Shown: positions 16,541 to 45,355 of the stretch, in pieces
Layout of the letters: each line of letters begins with the position of its first letter
Numbering within the stretch: position 1 is the first letter of the stretch
Source: Sipunculus nudus
Taxonomy: Eukaryota; Annelida; Sipuncula; Golfingiida; Sipunculidae
Length of the DNA stretch: 64,000 nucleotides
Direction: 5' to 3'
Assembly (NCBI GenBank): GCA_026874595.1
Contig: CM049307.1
Span: 43,902,362 to 43,966,361 of the forward strand
Made by a program: the position numbers and the translations under genes
Notes under the pieces: generated by a model
The model's input: the letters and a program-made list of their open reading frames with translations, nothing else
What the model was told of the DNA's origin: nothing
The model's database searches: none

Positions 16541-16780
16541 ACGATGTGTTACATGCAAAGAGCTCATAATGATGGAGAAAAAGATCAAAGTCACTTCACG
16601 TGACGTCACAACTTACAAGTCCGACTTACAACACCGACCCCATCGACTCGGCCGGTTGTTTACATAATCGGCTGCGCGCGCTTCATAAACGATCGTTAAT
16701 GAGTGATCTATCCACTTGTTACGTAACCACAAAAACCGGTCACTCTTTACAGGTGTGACCCGTCTCGCACGTAAAACTGA
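16541..16780. promoter_or_regulatory. Candidate enhancer with clustered transcription-factor motifs
   Basis: Within about 210 bp lie ATGCAAAG (octamer-like, 16553), GATCAAAG (TCF/LEF, 16583), CACGTG overlapping a perfect CRE TGACGTCA (16597-16608), TTGTTTAC (forkhead, 16656), GTTAATGA (homeodomain, 16695), AACCACAAA (RUNX, 16725) and AGGTGTGA (T-box, 16751). CpGs are retained and there is no simple repeat. It lies 5.3 kb upstream of the HMG-box gene. Motif content is seen directly; enhancer function is inference. Confidence 0.4.
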
Positions 16781-20885: not shown

Positions 20886-21965
20886 CCCACGGTTTACGCT
20901 AAACCGCCTACTAATTTCATGAATGCTCAGTGTAAGGGCATTGACTCTTGAAAGTGTTAGAAAAATATTTAAGACTATTCGATTAATGAGTGGTTACGAC
21001 GCTGTTTGTCAGTGGCTACAGGGCCACTAAGCAACAGACAGACCTTCTAATGCATGGGCCTACTTCACAAGACTCCTGTGCCTCTGGCGCCAGCATAACA
21101 CAGTACATCTTACGAACACCAGAAGTCGCGACAGATCAGCGTCGCATAACACACCTGCATGCTTGTCCATCGTGCATGACACATGATAAACATGTCTTAG
21201 CTGACATACTGCACGTACTGTATTATAAACAATAATCTGTGCATCTCCCCGATGGTCATTTATGCACGTGCCAAGCCTCATTTAAAAGAGGTACATATAT
21301 CCTCTCTTGTTTTACAATTTTCAGACTTTCTTTGAATGGCGAGCTTCTTCGAAACCTATATTCAAATTTCAAGCAATGTTAAGTGGTTCAACACACCTGT
21401 TAACGGTGGCTTATTTGGAACACAGAAAAAATATATCGAGATATCGACATAAACCTAGTATCTCGAAATCTCATTTTATATAGAATTTCACCAAAAATGT
21501 TTAGGACACAGAAAAAAAGTAATACATCTCGAGAGAAAATACGTAGTATTGTTTCTATGTCCTATATCAGTCATGGTACAGGTCTGTTTAATGGGAGCAT
21601 TGTCTTGATACCTATTAAAGTCTGTGTTTGAATTTTTCCTTTTTATAAAAAAGATTTGCGCCCCTCGCCCCCCCCCCCCCCCCCCCTTACACACACACAC
21701 TGAGCTTGATTCAGGCCTGTCAAATACCATGCACGTCACATAAGCCTACTGCGGTATGATAATATTCGACATATTTCAAATATCCCACGAAATGTTTACA
21801 CTAATTAACATTTTGGGTTAAACCTTACATTCAGACGTTTTCATGAACACAGTTTCAGTTTAAAAGTACATAATACATGCAAATGTTCTTTTATTAACGG
21901 CTTGTAGAAACTTAACATTAGATAACATGCATAATCAATGAACAACAGTGATAAACATAATGGGA
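20886..21965. other. Intergenic DNA with a poly-C run
   Basis: A run of 19 C lies at 21,668-21,686 beside a short CA repeat. No gene was recognised. Short frames at 20,990-21,281 on both strands match nothing. Confidence 0.5.
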
Positions 21966-22027
21966 ATCAAGGGGAGAAATGGAAACTGCACGTCGCAGGT
22001 GGATTCTCTCAGTGAGCATCGACGTCG

Positions 22028-22052
22028 TGACGTCATAAACATCGTGACGTCA
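22028..22052. promoter_or_regulatory. Two perfect cAMP-response elements (CRE) upstream of the HMG-box gene
   Basis: TGACGTCA occurs at 22028-22035 and 22045-22052, each inside the same 13-base direct repeat TCGTGACGTCATA, 17 bp apart. They lie 45-70 bp before the upstream ATG of the HMG-box gene. CREs bind CREB/CREM/ATF dimers, and paired proximal CREs are typical of cAMP-driven and of germ-cell promoters. No TATA box is seen at a matching distance. The actual transcription start is not known. Confidence 0.6.
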
Positions 22053-22096
22053 TAGCGAAGGCTCCTCATTTCTAGATCGATTCTGAAACGCAGGAT

Positions 22097-22129
22097 ATGG
22101 GTGGTGGTTCCACTGGAAGTGATTTGTTT
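22097..22129 (+). CDS. Putative first coding mini-exon of the HMG-box gene
   Basis: ATG at 22097 opens 11 codons (MGGGSTGSDLF) that end at a good donor, TTT|GTGAGT. The next exon begins in the same phase after TCTTTTAG, adding Leu-Ser before the internal Met at 22841. The reading frame fit could be chance, because only 33 bases are involved. If this exon is untranslated or unused, translation starts at 22841. Confidence 0.45.
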
Positions 22130-25100
22130 GTGAGTATATTAACTGTAGATTACTATAGAGGACGTTTTATTTCATCTCCTGATAAGTAATATATTGCATT
22201 TAGATGTAGAATGAAAACACGTGGAATTTAGACCTTTCATGCACAGTGAACATACCTTTTTGCAAGAAAGATCTTTCCCTGTCACTTTTATCAAGCCCAT
22301 AGTATCTCAACTTCGTGAGTTATAATTGATACTGATAGTGATAATAAACACTGATCATGACATAAAGTCCTAAGATATCAGTGTCAATGGCATATTCTTT
22401 CAATACATTTAATACAGTGCAACTGTTTCAAATCTTGTCAGTATCGATATATTTTGTACATCATATATAATAAGTTATATCGGTAAAAGTGCAGTATAAG
22501 TGACCTGCCAAAAACTTGCTTCCTTACTGATGGTGTGTCCTTATTTTTTCTTGCTCCCACATGGAGCTTACTTGATGATTCCATCAACATGCACAAATTT
22601 CTATAAGAAAATATCTAACTTGATTCAAAGGAAAAATTAAGTAAGATTTATGCCAGTTTACGTCAGGTCACCTATACTGCACTTTTACCGCATTTTGATC
22701 CGTGTAAAGCCCGCATTTCATACCGATTGCAACGGTACAGCTCAGCGCAAGAATGTTTTAATTTGAAAACTTAAAAAATCTTATTTAAATCTCAATTGTT
22801 GAAGGTTATTTTACAAGAAATTAATCTCTTTTAGCTGAGCATGGCTGCCCCAGTGGGAGGGGTGCTGTCCTTTCAGACAACAAATGGTTACGTAAAGCGT
22901 CCGATGAATTCGTATATGCTGTTTGCCAGGGACAACCGAAGGCGGGTCCAAAAACTGAACCCAAATTTGAACCTTGGACAGATCAGCACAGTACTAGGTG
23001 AGAAACATTGCCATTTGGACACTTGATCCTCCTGAATATACAGTATTGGCAAGTATTATTTAACTTGAATGAAGACTGTCCAAATTAATATGATAGTTTT
23101 ACCCTCATAACCCTGGTGGGCAAATTACATGAACCGAACGGAGCTGTATAAGTATAAAACTAGTATACATAAGTTCTCTGTAATCCTATTACATGATTTT
23201 GAACTGAAGACTGATAAAAAGTTAGCTTGGAAAAAACAGATTGTGTATTCAACCAGCCGGTAGATGGCGCTAAGAAAAAAGAAGCCAAGACGGAGCCTAA
23301 GAAAGGAATGAACCCCGGTACAGGAAAGACTGTGTTAAGCCTCACTCAAGTGAGATAACATCCATAAATTTCTCCCATATAAAACATAATATAACTACCG
23401 TTTAAGTTTACGCTATTTTCATTCGAGCTCCAGTGACAAAGATTGATACGTTGTTCCTGATGTTTCGTTCTTTTTTTCCCAATCCTATGTTACACCCTCC
23501 CCGAGCCGTCATTCGCTTTACAAGTCCCATACACACTCCCTGCAGAATCTTACTCACAAGCAAAGAGCTCTGCTGGTTATTGACTGTAAGTAAAGAAATT
23601 CTTTCTCCACAATGCCCTAGGCTCCCCACCAAGCACTGGGGCTTCTAGACACACCATCGCCATAGGTATAAATGTAATGAAGAGGACAAAGTAGTCCTTT
23701 AGAAATGAATCTGCTGGATTAGAAGTGTATCAAGGCAAATATCATGAATATGGACTTTTATTTGGTAAGGATAATGTACTAAGTATTTTTTTGTATGTAA
23801 GCGCATGTGCAGTGTAAACAGAACTTGTTTCCATGAACTGTTAAAAATTTAAATTTTGAAATTTGACAGGTTGTCCTGTCCGGCCCACGGACAAGCTGTC
23901 CCGGCGGGTCCACAATTCCTTACTGGAAGAAGTTCGTTTTGAATAGGAACGACCCCTGGCGGAAGGGTGGTCTAATACGTTGAATCCCGTCCCTTTTTAC
24001 TCATACGGGTCTCTGTGCCAGTGTTTTAACTTGATGACGTGACCCTGCTTTAAAATTCTGGGGTCGTTTCCTTTAATCCGATGTTTACATTTTGTGCATT
24101 TGATCTTAAACATCTTATTCGTGCACTTGCACATTTGTAAACCTATTAAATTATTTCCCTTATTTGCTTGCTCGTTATAAATGTGCAACATATTTATGTT
24201 GTTTCGTGTAGGCATAATGTGGCGCCATCTATCAGTCAACCAAAGAGACTATTACAAGAGTCTGTCTCAGCAACTGACTGAACTGCACCAGAGTCTGTAC
24301 CCCACATACAAGTATTCACCAGGCATGCGCAGACGTCACAACAAGGCGGAGAAGAGCTCAGATAGACACTCTAGGAAAAAAGCCATGGCAGCAATGAGAT
24401 ACCTGGGTAAGAATTTCAATACTTTTCAAAGCGTTCAATACATTAACAAAATTGAAAATGTTTTCTTTTGTTCATCTTTCAATTTTTCTGTTTTTCTGTA
24501 GAATCACACCAAAAATTACTAATTTAGCTCCCTCCTTTAGCTTTCATCGATATATAAATGTCCTTGGTTATTGGCATGTGAAGTATGATAGAACTCCGGT
24601 TAATTGGTGTAGGTTCAGTGGTAGTGTGTGATCATGTGCGCTCACAATAATAGTGTTCGAGGTTTAAATTCCGAATCCATCTGGCCTTATCAGGTTATTT
24701 TGTGTGTGTGTGTTTTTTTTTCAAATTTGTTTGGTGTTTCCACTCTCTTTTGTGTCCTTCAGTTATCGTTTAAAATACACCCTCGGTATCTACTCGGTAC
24801 TTCATTAGTATCTACACAGGGTTCTCAATTAGTATTTATAGGTTTCTTTGTCAGTATCTCCAGGATGTTCCATCAGTATCTAATCAGGGTTCTCCATCAG
24901 TATTCATAGGTTTCTTAGTCAGTATCTAAAGAATGCTCAGTCAGTATCTACACAGGGGTCTCCATCAGTAGTCACAGGTTTCTTCGTCAGTATATCCAGG
25001 ATGCTCCGTCAGTATCTACAGAGGGTTCTCCATCAGTAGTCACAGGTTTCTTCGTCAGTATCTCCAGGATGCTCCGTCAGTATCTACACAGGGTTCTCCA

Positions 25101-26871
25101 TCAGTAGTCACAGGTTTCTTCGTCAGTATCTCCAGGATGCTCCGTCAGTATCTACACGGGGTTCTCCATCAGTAGTCACAGGTTTCTTCGTCAGTATATC
25201 CAGGATGCTCCGTCAGTATCTACACAGGGTTCTCCATCAGTAGTCACAGGTTTCTTCGTCAGTATCTCCAGGATGCTCCGTCAGTATCTACAGAGGGTTC
25301 TCCATCAGTAGTCACAGATTTCTTCGTCAGTATCTCCAGGATGCTCCGTCAGTATTTTCACAGGGTTTTCCATCAGTATTTACAGGTTTCTTCGTCAATG
25401 TCTACAGGATTTTCGGCATTATCTACAGAGGGTTAACCATCAGGATTCATTGGTTTCTTCATCAGTATTTACAAGGGATCTCCATAAAATATTGATAATT
25501 TTCAATATTTGTCCTTTTTATCTTTATAGAACATGATATTGTGTCTATCAAATAAAACACAGTTCCGGTTACACCTTTAAAGACAAGAAAAAATAAATAT
25601 TACTTGAGGGATAGGCTAAAATGGATTTATTCGCTCCTTTTAATTTCTCCGTCCACCGCCAGACGTCGCGGCTTGTGGAGCAAATTGATGTGACCTGTTA
25701 TTCCTTATTTGCAGCATCGAGGAAATATAGAACCATTCGGCCGAAAAGGGACCCATTAGCACTAATAATGGAGAAACTGCAAATACACAGCGGTGCTACA
25801 GAGGCTACGGAACCTGTACTAGAGAGCAGACCAACAGAGGGACTGATACAACCACGCAGTGCTGACCACGTCCACCAGAGGAGTGGTGGACACTCAGATC
25901 CTGTAACATACGGTCAGAGAGGTAAAACTGCTGGACTGCAAGGTGGGACTAGTTGTAGCGGTCGATTTAACAGAACTTTCCTGCAAAAACGTAAATTTGA
26001 CGCGGGGACCAATTATACATTCAAAACTTGTACAACTAACAGGTTTAACAGTAAATTACCGTCCAAAGTCAATTCAAGAAAGCGTCACGCTCATCAAAGG
26101 TATCCTCCAAGTGATAAACGAGGGAGCTTTCTTCCTCATTGTGCAACTTCATTTAAACCACATTCAAGTCCTGCAAACTGCACATTAGTACCTAGCGCGA
26201 CCGACAGATGGCAGCGATCCCAAGAGCCGACTGCTGCAAATGAATCGCCTCTTCCACGTAGATTCGGTTTCTTTGGTTTGCAAAAAGTGGAAGAACCATT
26301 AACCAGCCCTGGGACTTACAGCCGTCATCAGACTCCACCAAAGATCATAAGCTGCTCCAGTCCGGGCTCTGTGTCTTCACTGACCGAAGAACTCCGTGAA
26401 TGTCTCAAAGACTCGCCGTGGCGGAGCCCGTTTTTATCGATTCTAGATCTGAATTCATCGCCAAGGAACAGCTTACCATCAAGCAATGACTGGTTAGTCG
26501 GTGACAGAACTTTATACGACATGTCTCCTGTGTTTAACCCGCGCTTATTTGAAAGTCCTCAAAACGAGGCTGAAAATCCCGTCTGTATGGAGAGTGACTG
26601 CTTTCCTATGAATAGCACATGTCTGGAGGCTGACGATGACTTGTTACCGGTTGCCAGCACACCTCCAAAGAATACGCTAAGTGCTCCTTACGATTCCATC
26701 CCGGTCCTCCCGCACAAATCAAGAGTGATAACAGGACGACTGGAGGAAGATGTTGGCTTTGTTATGTCCATCCCTGATGATGTAACCATGCCATCCCTGG
26801 AAACAGTCGACACATCAGTCCTGAACAGCCCCACGTACGACCGCCATTCGGAGTTGTTTGGTCTGGCTTGA
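22097..26871 (+). CDS. SOX-like HMG-box transcription factor (4-exon model)
   Basis: A sequence-specific DNA-binding protein of the HMG-box superfamily, expected in the nucleus. The exon junctions 22997/24212 and 24406/25715 join in phase 1 through clean GT-AG sites and give 502 residues from the Met at 22841. The box spans residues about 17-90: it opens with KRPMNSYMLFARDNRRRV, has ISTVLG, then a second helix with Trp56 and a third helix ending in LYPTYKYSP. A basic cluster (RRRH, then RHSRKK) forms a likely nuclear localisation signal. The ending YPxYKYxP is SOX-like, but the usual SOX signature RPMNAFMVW reads RPMNSYMLF here, so it is a divergent SOX or SOX-related protein, not assignable to a subgroup by eye. 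The long C-terminal part is Ser/Pro-rich and partly acidic, as in activation domains. An upstream mini-exon starting at 22097 would add 13 residues in frame. Alternatives: an HBP1- or MATA-type box. Confidence 0.85.
22481..22690. mobile_element. 210-bp TIR element in intron 1 of the HMG-box gene
   Basis: The ends are about 27-bp inverted repeats starting CGGTAAAAGTGCAGTATA and differing at only one position. The element is noncoding, so it is a MITE by structure. No target-site duplication is obvious, so the superfamily is undetermined. It sits wholly between the putative first exon and the HMG-box exon. Confidence 0.7.
22835..22997 (+). CDS. HMG-box gene exon 2 (first half of the HMG box)
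   Basis: The acceptor is a pyrimidine-rich AATCTCTTTTAG ending at 22834 and the donor is CTAG|GTGAGA at 22998. The exon encodes the N-terminal arm, helix 1 and the start of helix 2 up to STVL, ending one base into Gly53. The Met at 22841 (context GAGCATGG) is the conservative start. Confidence 0.9.
24212..24406 (+). CDS. HMG-box gene exon 3 (second half of the HMG box and nuclear localisation signal)
   Basis: The acceptor TTTCGTGTAG ends at 24211 and the donor CTGG|GTAAGA follows 24406. The two bases after the acceptor complete Gly53, giving STVLGIMWRHLS across the junction, a normal HMG-box helix 2. The exon ends with a basic tail and one base of the next codon. Confidence 0.9.
24609..24680 (+). 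mobile_element. tRNA-derived SINE head in intron 3
   Basis: A box A-like AGGTTCAGTGGTAGTG (from 24611) and a box B-like GAGGTTTAAATTCC (to 24672) stand at tRNA spacing. The acceptor stem is not conserved, so it is a SINE remnant rather than a tRNA gene. A T-rich, GT-rich stretch follows at about 24,700. Confidence 0.5.
24780..25460. repeat. 68-bp minisatellite in intron 3 of the HMG-box gene
   Basis: About seven nearly identical 68-bp units contain TTCTTCGTCAGTATCTCCAG and ATGCTCCGTCAGTATCTACA. The unit is built from shorter sub-repeats around the word TCAGTATCT. It is homogeneous at about 24,960-25,340 and degenerate on both sides. Confidence 0.9.
25715..26871 (+). CDS. HMG-box gene exon 4 (C-terminal region and stop)
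   Basis: The acceptor TTCCTTATTTGCAG ends at 25714, and the first two bases complete an Ala codon with the preceding exon. The frame is open upstream to a Met at 25621, but that part precedes the splice acceptor and is intron. The encoded 385 residues begin ASRKYRTIRPKRDPLALIM, then are Ser/Pro/Thr-rich with an acidic patch (ESDCFPMN to ADDDLLPV), and end at TGA 26869-26871. No second DNA-binding domain is visible. Confidence 0.85.
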
Positions 26872-39969: not shown

Positions 39970-40225
39970 TGGAAACTGTTTTTAACTTATGACTTTGAGA
40001 TATTTTTAAAACTTTTAACAATGGTGCATGAGCTTTCACAATCAGGCTGGGTGGGGCGTGACGTATTCTCATCTGGGCAGTTAGGTCAACAAATGGTCAG
40101 TCAGTAGAGTATAACATTCCATAAGGCATCTCCTGCTGTCGCCTTGGTAACTGTCAATGACAGGACTGGATTGTTCAATTGTTCGGCTGCAATAAACTCT
40201 CCCCCATGCAGTCCGCTCAGTCAGA
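38791..40225. other. Intergenic DNA with a (CT)n tract
   Basis: A pure CT tract spans 39,921-39,967. No gene was recognised. Confidence 0.6.
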
Positions 40226-41840
40226 CTGTTCTACAGACTGTTCTTCTGACTGTTCTACTGAGTATTCTACAAACTCTTCAACTGACAGTTCTACAGACTG
40301 TTCTACAGACTGTTCTACAGACTGTTCTACAGGCTGTTCTACAGGCTGTTCTACAGGCTGTTCTAGAGACTGTTCTAGAGACTGTTCTACAGGCTGTTCT
40401 ACAGACTGTTCTACAGACTGTTCTACAGACTGTTCTACAGACTGTTCTACAGACTGTTCTACAGGCTGTTCTACAGACTGTTCTACAGGCTGTTCTACAG
40501 GCTGTTCTACAGGCTGTTCTACAGGCTGTTCTACAGACTGTTCTACAGGCTGTTCTACAGGCTGTTCTACTGACTATTCTACAGGCTGTTCTACAGGCTG
40601 TTCTACAGGCTGTTCTACAGACTGTTCTACAGACTGTTCCACAGGCAGTTCTACAGACTGTTCTACAGGCTGTTCTACAGACTGTTCTACAGACTGTTCT
40701 ACAGGCTGTTCTACAGACTGTTCTACAGACTGTTCTACAGGCTGTTCTACAGACTGTTCTACAGGCTGTTCTACAGACTGTTCTACAGGCTGTTCTATAG
40801 GCTGTTCTACAGACTGTTCTACAAACTGTTATACTGACAGTTCTACAGGCTGTTCTACAGACTGTTCTACAGGCTGTTCTACAGACTGATCTACAGACTG
40901 TTCTACAGACTGTTCTACAGACTGTTCTACAGACTGTTCTACAGACTGTTCTACAGACTGTTCTACAGAATGTTCTACAGACTGATCTACAGGCTGTTCT
41001 ACAGACTGTTCTACAGACTGTTCTACAGGCTGTTCTACAGACTGTTCTACAGGCTGTTCTACAGACTGTTCTACAGACTGTTCTACAGACTGTTGTACAG
41101 ACTGTTCTACAGACTGTTCTACAGACTGTTCTACAGGCTGTTCTACAGACTGTTCTACAGGCTGTTCTACAGACTGTTCTACAGACTGTTCTACAGAATA
41201 CAGACTGTTCTACAGACTGTTCTACAGAATACAGGCTGTTCTACAGGCTGTTCTACAGACTGTTCTACAGACTGTTCTACAGACTGTTCTACAGACTGTT
41301 CTACAGAATACAGACTGTTCTACAGACTGTTCTACAGACTGTTCTACAGACTGTTCTTCAGAATACAGGCTGTTCTACAGGCTGTTCTACAGACTGTTCT
41401 ACAGACTGTTCTACAGACTGTTCTACAGAATACAGACTGTTCTACAGACTGTTCTACAGACTGTTCTTCAGAATACAGGCTGTTCTACAGGCTGTTCTAC
41501 AGACTGTTCTACAGACTGTTCTACAGACTGTTCTACAGAATACAGACTGTTCTACAGACTGTTCTACAGAAAACAGGCTGTTCTACAGGCTGTTCTACAG
41601 ACTGTTCTACAGACTGTTCTACAGAATACAGGCTGTTCTACAGGCTGTTCTACAGACTGTTCTACAGACTGTTCTACAGAATACAGACTGTTCTACAGAC
41701 TGTTCTACAAACTGTTCTACAGAATACAGACTGTTCTACAGACTGTTCTACAGACTGTTCTACAGACTGTTCTACAGAATACAGGCTGTTCTACAGGCTG
41801 TTCTACAGGCTGTTCTATAGACTGTTCTACAGACTGTTCG
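40226..41840. repeat. 1.6-kb satellite of a 12-bp unit (CTGTTCTACAGR)
   Basis: About 130 units of CTGTTCTACAGA or CTGTTCTACAGG follow head to tail. The main variation is A or G at one position. From about 41,195 on, a 7-bp spacer AATACAG is inserted between blocks about eleven times, each shifting the reading frame. Frames of 218, 236 and 317 codons cover the array because the unit has no stop in any + frame. They are not called as genes: there is no start context, no domain and no splice signal. Confidence 0.95.
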
Positions 41841-44854: not shown

Positions 44855-45129
44855 ATGGGAAGTCTGCAGGAATTACAGCGCTCACTGCGCCAAAAAGATG
44901 AACGGATCAAAGAACTGCTAAGGATTATTAAAGAAAAAGATGAGCGAATACAGGAACTCTCAAGCCAGTTGGATAAATACCAGTCTGTGCTACCCCAGAG
45001 CCCATCAGCTTTCCAACGGAAGGGGCCCAGAACACAGAGGGCACAGGGTATATCAGCTGAACCCCACGCTCTGGCCAATTTAGCGGACTTCAAAGCTAAC
45101 ACCTTCAAGAAATACTCCAAATCTAGAAG
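44855..45129 (+). CDS. PRKG1: cGMP-dependent protein kinase 1, N-terminal coding exon (gene continues)
   Basis: This exon encodes the dimerisation and autoinhibitory start of PKG I (Drosophila foraging), the cytosolic Ser/Thr kinase activated by cGMP in NO/natriuretic signalling. The 91 codons show a leucine zipper with Leu/Ile at every seventh position (4, 11, 18, 25, 32, 39, 46), then QSVLP and the autoinhibitory segment GPRTQRAQGISAEP (57-70), nearly identical to vertebrate PKG I-alpha. The exon ends in phase 2 at AGAAG|GTAGGT, the place where vertebrate isoform-specific first exons join the common exon. The start has G at -3 and +4. Position 42 is Tyr, where mammalian PKG I-alpha has its redox-active Cys. 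The cGMP-binding and kinase exons are not in this window as far as can be seen. Confidence 0.92.
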
Positions 45130-45355
45130 GTAGGTCAACTACAGTACTTCTTCAGTACAATGACTCCATACACAAGAATACTAAAACATTCGATGTCAAT
45201 ACCTCACCATATAGATTACCCCCTACCAGAAGAAGAGAAAAATGCATTACGTCAGCCATCGTTTCTGTGATGTATATACCATGATAATTATAGATTGATA
45301 ATCTTTAATCAGGAGGTGCCCAGCTCATTATTATTCTTTTCTTTTTCTTTTTACC

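Follow-up and report, generated by a model that had tools for sequence, protein, structure and literature searches.

A candidate divergent SOX-like HMG-box gene in addition to the canonical SOX set of Sipunculus nudus

Introduction

The HMG box of SOX transcription factors carries a core motif, RPMNAFMVW (PMC4813134, PMC6814067), and one rule assigns a gene to the family when its box is at least 50% similar to that of SRY (PMC3004900). The motif is not absolute, as Sox30 and Sox32 of tilapia deviate from it (PMC4813134), and the Sox-like genes of Sycon are set apart by two marks, one of which is a deviation from RPMNAF (PMC3495037). Six main SOX groups (SoxB1/2, C, D, E, F and H) and no clade-restricted member are reported from over 40 bivalves, in a survey that retained only genes agreed upon by two annotation systems (PMC12530298). 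A survey of echinoderms used RPMNAFMVW itself as a screen (PMC11218330). Here we describe an HMG-box gene in a 64,000-nucleotide stretch of the Sipunculus nudus genome (assembly GCA_026874595.1, contig CM049307.1, positions 43,902,362 to 43,966,361, forward strand; hereafter the window, in whose numbering positions are given). We consider it probable, at roughly 60%, that this is an intact, single-copy gene encoding a divergent SOX-like transcription factor, present in addition to canonical SoxB1, B2, C, D, E, F and H. In the literature searches, no paper describing the gene was recognised, and its sequence was not compared with animal protein databases.

Results

The window gene lies on the forward strand and comprises four exons joined by GT-AG introns, giving 1548 nt, or 515 amino acids and a stop codon (Table 1). 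Exon phases had been read in the original prediction, made from the sequence alone, and its exons were borne out as intact by joins that keep the frame through all 515 codons. Three ends were tried for exon 3, and only one of them (24406) kept the frame. Upstream, an in-frame TAG at 22073 shuts the reading frame, no earlier ATG occurs in that frame, and further upstream coding exons are unlikely given this stop. Exon 1 may be 5′ untranslated region if translation begins at the ATG of exon 2 (22841), which has a good start context as judged by eye.

Coding potential was scored against codon frequencies derived from five other open reading frames (ORFs) of the same genome. Exon 4 lies in a frame that stays open for 418 codons between stops, longer than any other open frame in the window. 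Its score of 0.080 bits/codon exceeded that of 2000 of 2000 presumed non-coding windows (maximum 0.019) and of its other five frames, while staying under that of the training ORFs (0.20–0.41 bits/codon). Exon 3 scored highest in its own frame (0.235 bits/codon); exon 2 (54 codons) scored 0.081 bits/codon in its own frame versus 0.117 in another, so its own frame was not the best. When the whole protein was searched against the 1.43-Gb genome, 13 matches reached E ≤ 1: three were the gene's own exons and ten were HMG boxes with at most short edges. No second copy of the gene was found. The window gene is intact, protein-coding and apparently single-copy. A contaminant or fungal origin was rejected in view of the long introns, the 98-Mb contig and a codon usage that resembles host genes more closely than non-coding DNA. 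As an animal gene would lead one to expect, a 128-residue query had no confirmed relatives among prokaryote genomes or viral contigs.

The protein contains one HMG box (residues 31–99; PF00505, E 1.3e-15, 58 bits), preceded by only 29 residues in the gene model. The remaining two Pfam matches were an overlapping HMG model and one under its cut-off. At box positions 5–13, where the SOX core is expected, the box reads RPMNSYMLF, and it ends in YPTYKYSP; the letters of both motifs are as the original prediction gave them. The C-terminus had been described there as having no recognisable relative, which agrees with the absence of any Pfam match for its 384 residues and of a second copy in the genome. 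Its net charge shifts from +9 (residues 241–300) to −6 (residues 421–480), with a basic first half and an acidic end. An AlphaFold model of the C-terminus alone, computed without an alignment, had a mean predicted local distance difference test score (pLDDT) of 41; it was uninformative and was not used.

The SOX and other HMG boxes of the same genome were collected with a PF00505 profile search, mammalian reference boxes were taken from PDB chains, and class names were assigned by comparison. At least 27 matches were obtained. The SOX set consists of SoxB1 and SoxB2 on contig C9, SoxC and SoxF on C4, SoxD at C14:47698159, SoxE on C2 and SoxH at C1:72683605; further boxes belong to CIC, two TCF exons, HMGB, SSRP1, a polybromo-like gene and others. 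All seven canonical SOX boxes (7/7) carry RPMNAFMVW, and that of SoxH also carries NNAEISVQLG. Because each of these families is represented elsewhere in the genome, including a canonical SoxH, the window gene is an addition to a full bilaterian SOX set.

In the window gene, the intron within the box interrupts VLG at its Gly codon, between the first and second bases (CTA G/GC, phase 1). In both SoxD and SoxF of S. nudus the intron lies at the identical base of the same Gly codon, again in phase 1 (TTA G/GT in each), and donor and acceptor were seen in all three genes. The other donors of this genome lie elsewhere: four codons on and in phase 2 in SoxE, at the YPG codon in SoxH, in phase 0 after GRK in TCF and after LAFQ in CIC. 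The acceptor of an HMGB-type gene lies one codon upstream of the window-gene site, and the SoxB1, B2 and C boxes are intronless. One intron per box is reported, without its position, for groups D, E, F, H and K of tilapia (PMC4813134). The intron common to the window gene, SoxD and SoxF points to SOX descent; its simplest reading is probably descent from a SoxD/F-type stock.

Among the mammalian boxes, identity to the window box was highest for SOX30 (29/77, 38%), followed by SRY and SOX2 (35%), SOX5 and SOX9 (34% each; 26/77 for SOX5), SOX4, 11, 17 and 18 (30–32%), CIC and HBP1 (30%), LEF1 (26%), BBX (23%) and HMGB1 box B (22%), whereas the SOX-SOX pairs compared were at least 42% identical. 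SOX5 gave the best BLOSUM score among 14 boxes compared. Relative to SRY, 27/77 positions were identical and 61% were BLOSUM-positive, so that the 50% level is missed by identity and reached by similarity. With phmmer on single-box PDB chains, SOX30 ranked best (54.9 bits), with SOX5 at 54.5.

Trees were built on 77 columns, with the S. nudus SoxE, SoxH, SoxD, TCF, SSRP1 and L011 boxes being partial, and cannot decide placement. The S. nudus boxes joined their mammalian counterparts for SoxH with SOX30 (92/98), SoxD with SOX5 (99/100), SoxE (96/99), SoxF (81/87) and SoxC (88/89), and SoxB1/B2 grouped with SOX2 and SRY (99/57), drawing in the odd box L017 described below. The window gene grouped with none of these SOX families. 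A firm place in a known somatic family, which would have spoken against the original prediction, did not emerge; the tree places the gene firmly in no family at all. Approximately unbiased (AU) tests of 11 constrained trees, from which a fungal box and L017 were left out, rejected a grouping of the window gene with SoxF (p 0.003), SoxE (0.018), SoxB (0.022) and SoxC (0.023). Groupings with SoxD (0.185), with SoxH (0.088) and inside SOX (0.157) were not rejected, and the free tree had p 0.73. None of the 11 constrained trees was rejected by the Shimodaira–Hasegawa test. The SoxF motif DxxEFxQY is absent from the C-terminus of the window gene.

Structural work on HMG boxes has provided a rule based on residues 10, 32 and 36; residue 32 touches a base in SOX and LEF proteins and forms a second wedge in HMG-D. 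In HMG-D numbering, the window box retains Asn10, Ser36, Trp43, an aromatic-Met pair (Tyr12-Met13 in place of Phe-Met) and the YPxYKYxP tail, and has Leu at position 32 in helix 2. Among 23 sequence-specific boxes (13 mammalian and 10 from S. nudus), this position is Asn in 21 and Ser in two (LEF1 and the S. nudus TCF), whereas it is hydrophobic in all four architectural boxes of the alignment (I, F, V, V). By eye, seven more non-SOX boxes of this genome (L005, the second box of L008, L012, L013, L014, L019 and L021) have Leu, Val or Phe. The count excludes the second TCF exon, which has Ser, the hand-entered fungal box, which has Asn, L017, where the alignment is shifted, and L023 (Thr by eye, class unclear).

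Two of these boxes merit separate description. L017:2006-2620 (forward strand, contig C102) is an ORF without introns whose divergent HMG box is MATA-like (RPPNSFLVFR...YPEYKFTP; PF00505, E 8e-10). Contig C102 is unplaced and 127 kb long; by eye its other ORFs look bacterial or phage-like (a 637-aa tail-type protein, a transporter, an acyl-CoA dehydrogenase-like protein), with WD40-like repeats as well, and its GC content is 47–51% in two stretches versus 37–41% at four host SOX loci. The contig probably belongs to a symbiont or is a contaminant, and carries a eukaryote-like gene. L023 (C3:81308000-81314000) holds a second divergent, split HMG box, MNGFMMYSRMHRREF ... HTSQISKKMGHAWRKL, which is reminiscent of the meiosis gene MEIOSIN/BHMG1.

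Two perfect cAMP response elements (CREs) shortly before the first ATG had been reported in the original prediction, and both are exact matches to TGACGTCA, set within a direct repeat TCGTGACGTCATA. A third TGACGTCA occurs in the window at 16601, making 3 versus 0.76 expected, a number attained in 5 of 100 shuffles. The expectation from a first-order model, 1.6e-4 close pairs per window, underrates the true frequency: the whole 1.43-Gb genome holds 1105 CRE pairs with gaps of 4–22 bp, versus 453 for a reversed control pattern, or about 0.05 per 64 kb and 8e-5 per 100 bp. Several of the copies listed share one spacer and look like repeats. Pairs with the spacer TATTGAT were seen at five nearby places on C1 (37038812, 37050052, 37064376, 37101771 and 37117442), and some pairs travel with repeats. 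A pair somewhere in a 64-kb window is not extraordinary; one directly before a given ATG is unlikely to be due to chance. Neither a forward-strand TATA box nor a CCAAT was found within 21801–22301, and the CpG observed/expected ratio was 1.23 in 21901–22100 versus 0.84 in the whole window. The pair is likely a promoter element and points to the CREB/ATF/CREM family, not to the germ line; because 1105 such pairs occur in the genome, it is not diagnostic.

Table 1. Features of the window gene and its surroundings.
Feature	Position	Strand	Description
CRE 1	22028-22035		TGACGTCA, palindrome; exact match; 62-69 bp before ATG
CRE 2	22045-22052		TGACGTCA; exact match; 45-52 bp before ATG
Exon 1	22097-22129	+	33 nt; MGGGSTGSDLF; ATG at 22097; donor GTGAGT, phase 0
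Exon 2	22835-22997	+	163 nt; encodes the N-terminal part of the box (helix 1 and the beginning of helix 2); donor splits the VLG Gly codon, phase 1
Exon 3	24212-24406	+	195 nt; C-terminal part of HMG box, YPTYKYSP tail, basic stretch MRRRHNKAEKSSDRHSRKK
Minisatellite	24807-25468	+	68-bp unit, 9.8 copies; in intron 3
Exon 4	25715-26871	+	1157 nt including stop; C-terminal 384 residues and split codon; TGA 26869-26871

In intron 1, a 39-bp inverted repeat with imperfect arms (87%) encloses a 132-bp loop (22481–22690); it is possibly a small transposon relic. Elsewhere in the window, 142 of the 148 longest filtered ORFs were scanned (six overlapping or low-complexity ORFs were left out) and gave ten families at E ≤ 0.01, of which only the coiled coil of a cGMP-dependent protein kinase (PKG) was clear. 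This match marks the first coding exon of a PKG gene at 44855–45130 on the forward strand (MGSLQELQRSL..., PKcGMP_CC, E 3e-10), with a donor after SKSRR. A 12-bp tandem array of about 140 copies (40222–41839, unit CAGACTGTTCTA) leaves long open frames in several reading frames on both strands, which are repeat artefacts. Rfam and tRNA scans of the 64-kb window gave no match.

Discussion

The window gene most likely descends from the SoxD/SoxF-type, intron-bearing SOX stock, as a fast-evolving offshoot. With SoxF rejected by the AU test, a SoxD or SOX-stem branch remains. Several points weigh against this descent. The box is without RPMNAFMVW, and its identity to SRY (35%) lies under 50%. Scored with a profile of nine SOX boxes, it obtains 70.1 bits, which puts it level with CIC (69.7) and far below the lowest held-out SOX box (SOX30, 99.5). 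The tree leans outside SOX, beside the hand-entered fungal box and without support (44/45). The AU tests leave groupings with HBP1 (0.188), TCF (0.544), CIC/BBX (0.575) and the architectural boxes (0.590) unrejected, and the bootstrap by resampling of estimated log-likelihoods (RELL) drops the tree inside SOX (0.020), and SoxH likewise, from its 95% set. AG/G sites are favoured sites of intron insertion, and an independent gain of the intron at such a site is possible. The tree alone leaves SOX membership open, and the gene is best filed as a SOX-like orphan.

The same observations bear on the proposal that the gene stands outside the SOX stock, as a relic that this lineage has retained from a more ancient HMG stem between SOX, TCF/CIC/HBP1 and the fungal MATA boxes. 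Such a relic would agree with the weak grouping outside SOX, with the unrejected non-SOX groupings and with MLF in place of MVW, as in HBP1, and Sox-like genes of choanoflagellates and ctenophores that cluster outside SOX are reported (PMC4021642). Its descent would, however, leave unaccounted for an intron at the very base used by SoxD and SoxF and the SOX-type YPxYKYxP tail, and the SOX profile does not decide the matter; we regard it as unlikely. Identity with the SoxH/Sox30 gene of this animal, which would be a testis gene, was considered first, on the strength of the SOX30 box being the closest full mammalian box by identity and the best phmmer match. SoxH is reported as testis-specific in oyster and sea cucumber (PMC4232546, PMC11218330). 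This identity was dropped once the canonical SoxH of S. nudus appeared, which itself pairs with SOX30, shares only 22/68 identical positions with the window box and has its donor at the YPG codon instead of in the LG codon; the AU value for SoxH comes near rejection without falling under it. A diverged SoxH is consequently very improbable, and the link to testis that it would bring is undercut because the genome has this separate canonical gene.

A more serious candidate is orthology with CgSox-like of the Pacific oyster, whose expression is reported to be strongest in the gonad of mature males (PMC12111275, citing Sun et al. 2023 and one more paper); the window gene would then be a known male-gonad SOX-like gene. 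A divergent oyster Sox, Cg05340 (E 6e-8 to nematode Sox2), is also listed (PMC4232546). If these are one gene, the two reports clash on gonad bias, as Cg05340 is marked not gonad-specific in the latter; both oyster genes are known here by description and not by sequence, and we hold the orthology possible but doubtful. By analogy, the CRE pair might mark a CREM-driven spermatid gene, in keeping with two perfect CREs 45–69 bp before the ATG and the missing forward-strand TATA box. CREs are, however, common in ordinary CREB/ATF promoters, similar pairs abound in this genome and exon 2 has a good ATG of its own, so a spermatid gene of this type seems unlikely. Expression in gonad is possible. A germline or sex-related role, which the original prediction drew from the CRE analogy, is a guess that these results do not support, but the oyster report of a male-biased Sox-like gene leaves it conceivable. 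The boldest proposal combines SOX-type Asn10 and Ser36 with an HMGB-like helix 2 in a mixed-class box lineage, an eighth SOX-stem gene under CRE control that would encode a DNA bender of relaxed specificity in the germ line; to this combination we give little credence.

For the SOX-like orphan that we prefer, a working model can be outlined. By homology, the box would bind the DNA minor groove and bend DNA. Asn10, Tyr12-Met13 and Ser36 would keep it close to the sequence-specific boxes, and Leu in place of Asn32 would probably relax or alter base reading by helix 2, perhaps by adding another hydrophobic wedge. The basic stretch that follows the box may serve as a nuclear signal and the acidic C-terminal end as a transactivation region. 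Transcription, controlled by factors of the CREB/ATF/CREM type, probably starts in the ~45 bp that separate the CREs from the ATG. This mixed DNA interface offers a natural test of the residues that separate sequence-reading from architectural HMG boxes.

Compared with described systems, the window gene shares with SoxD (SOX5 and the SoxD of S. nudus) the HMG box and the phase-1 intron in the same Gly codon, a grouping that the AU test leaves standing, but differs in RPMNSYMLF, Leu32 and the unmatched C-terminus. SoxD proteins have an N-terminal coiled coil, whereas only 29 residues precede the window box. SoxH/SOX30 has the highest identity among the full boxes compared (38%), but the S. nudus SoxH is a separate gene, its intron site differs and the N-terminus of the window gene is short. 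Like HMGB, NHP6A and HMG-D, the window box has a hydrophobic residue 32, together with Tyr12-Met13 as in NHP6A and HMG-D and Gly33-Gln34 as in NHP6A. Unlike them it is a single box with Asn10, Ser36 and a SOX-type tail; among the HMGB-type marks (Ser10, hydrophobic 32, non-SOX tail) it thus shows only the second. The fungal MATA_HMG boxes, compared through a hand-entered sequence of S. pombe Mc (26/76 identical), are alike in MWR and YPxYKYxP and unlike in that the window box has RPM for RPP and Leu32 for Asn. Among divergent Sox-like genes, such as SoxL of Sycon and Sox-like of oyster, those of Sycon resemble the window gene in deviating from RPMNAF, a likeness drawn from their description. 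Both filters used in the surveys, agreement between annotations and the RPMNAFMVW screen, could drop a gene of this kind. Divergent SOX-like genes are themselves already known, and the window gene would add one more to them. If it has orthologues, the search for sex-determining genes in molluscs may be missing an entire SOX-like lineage.
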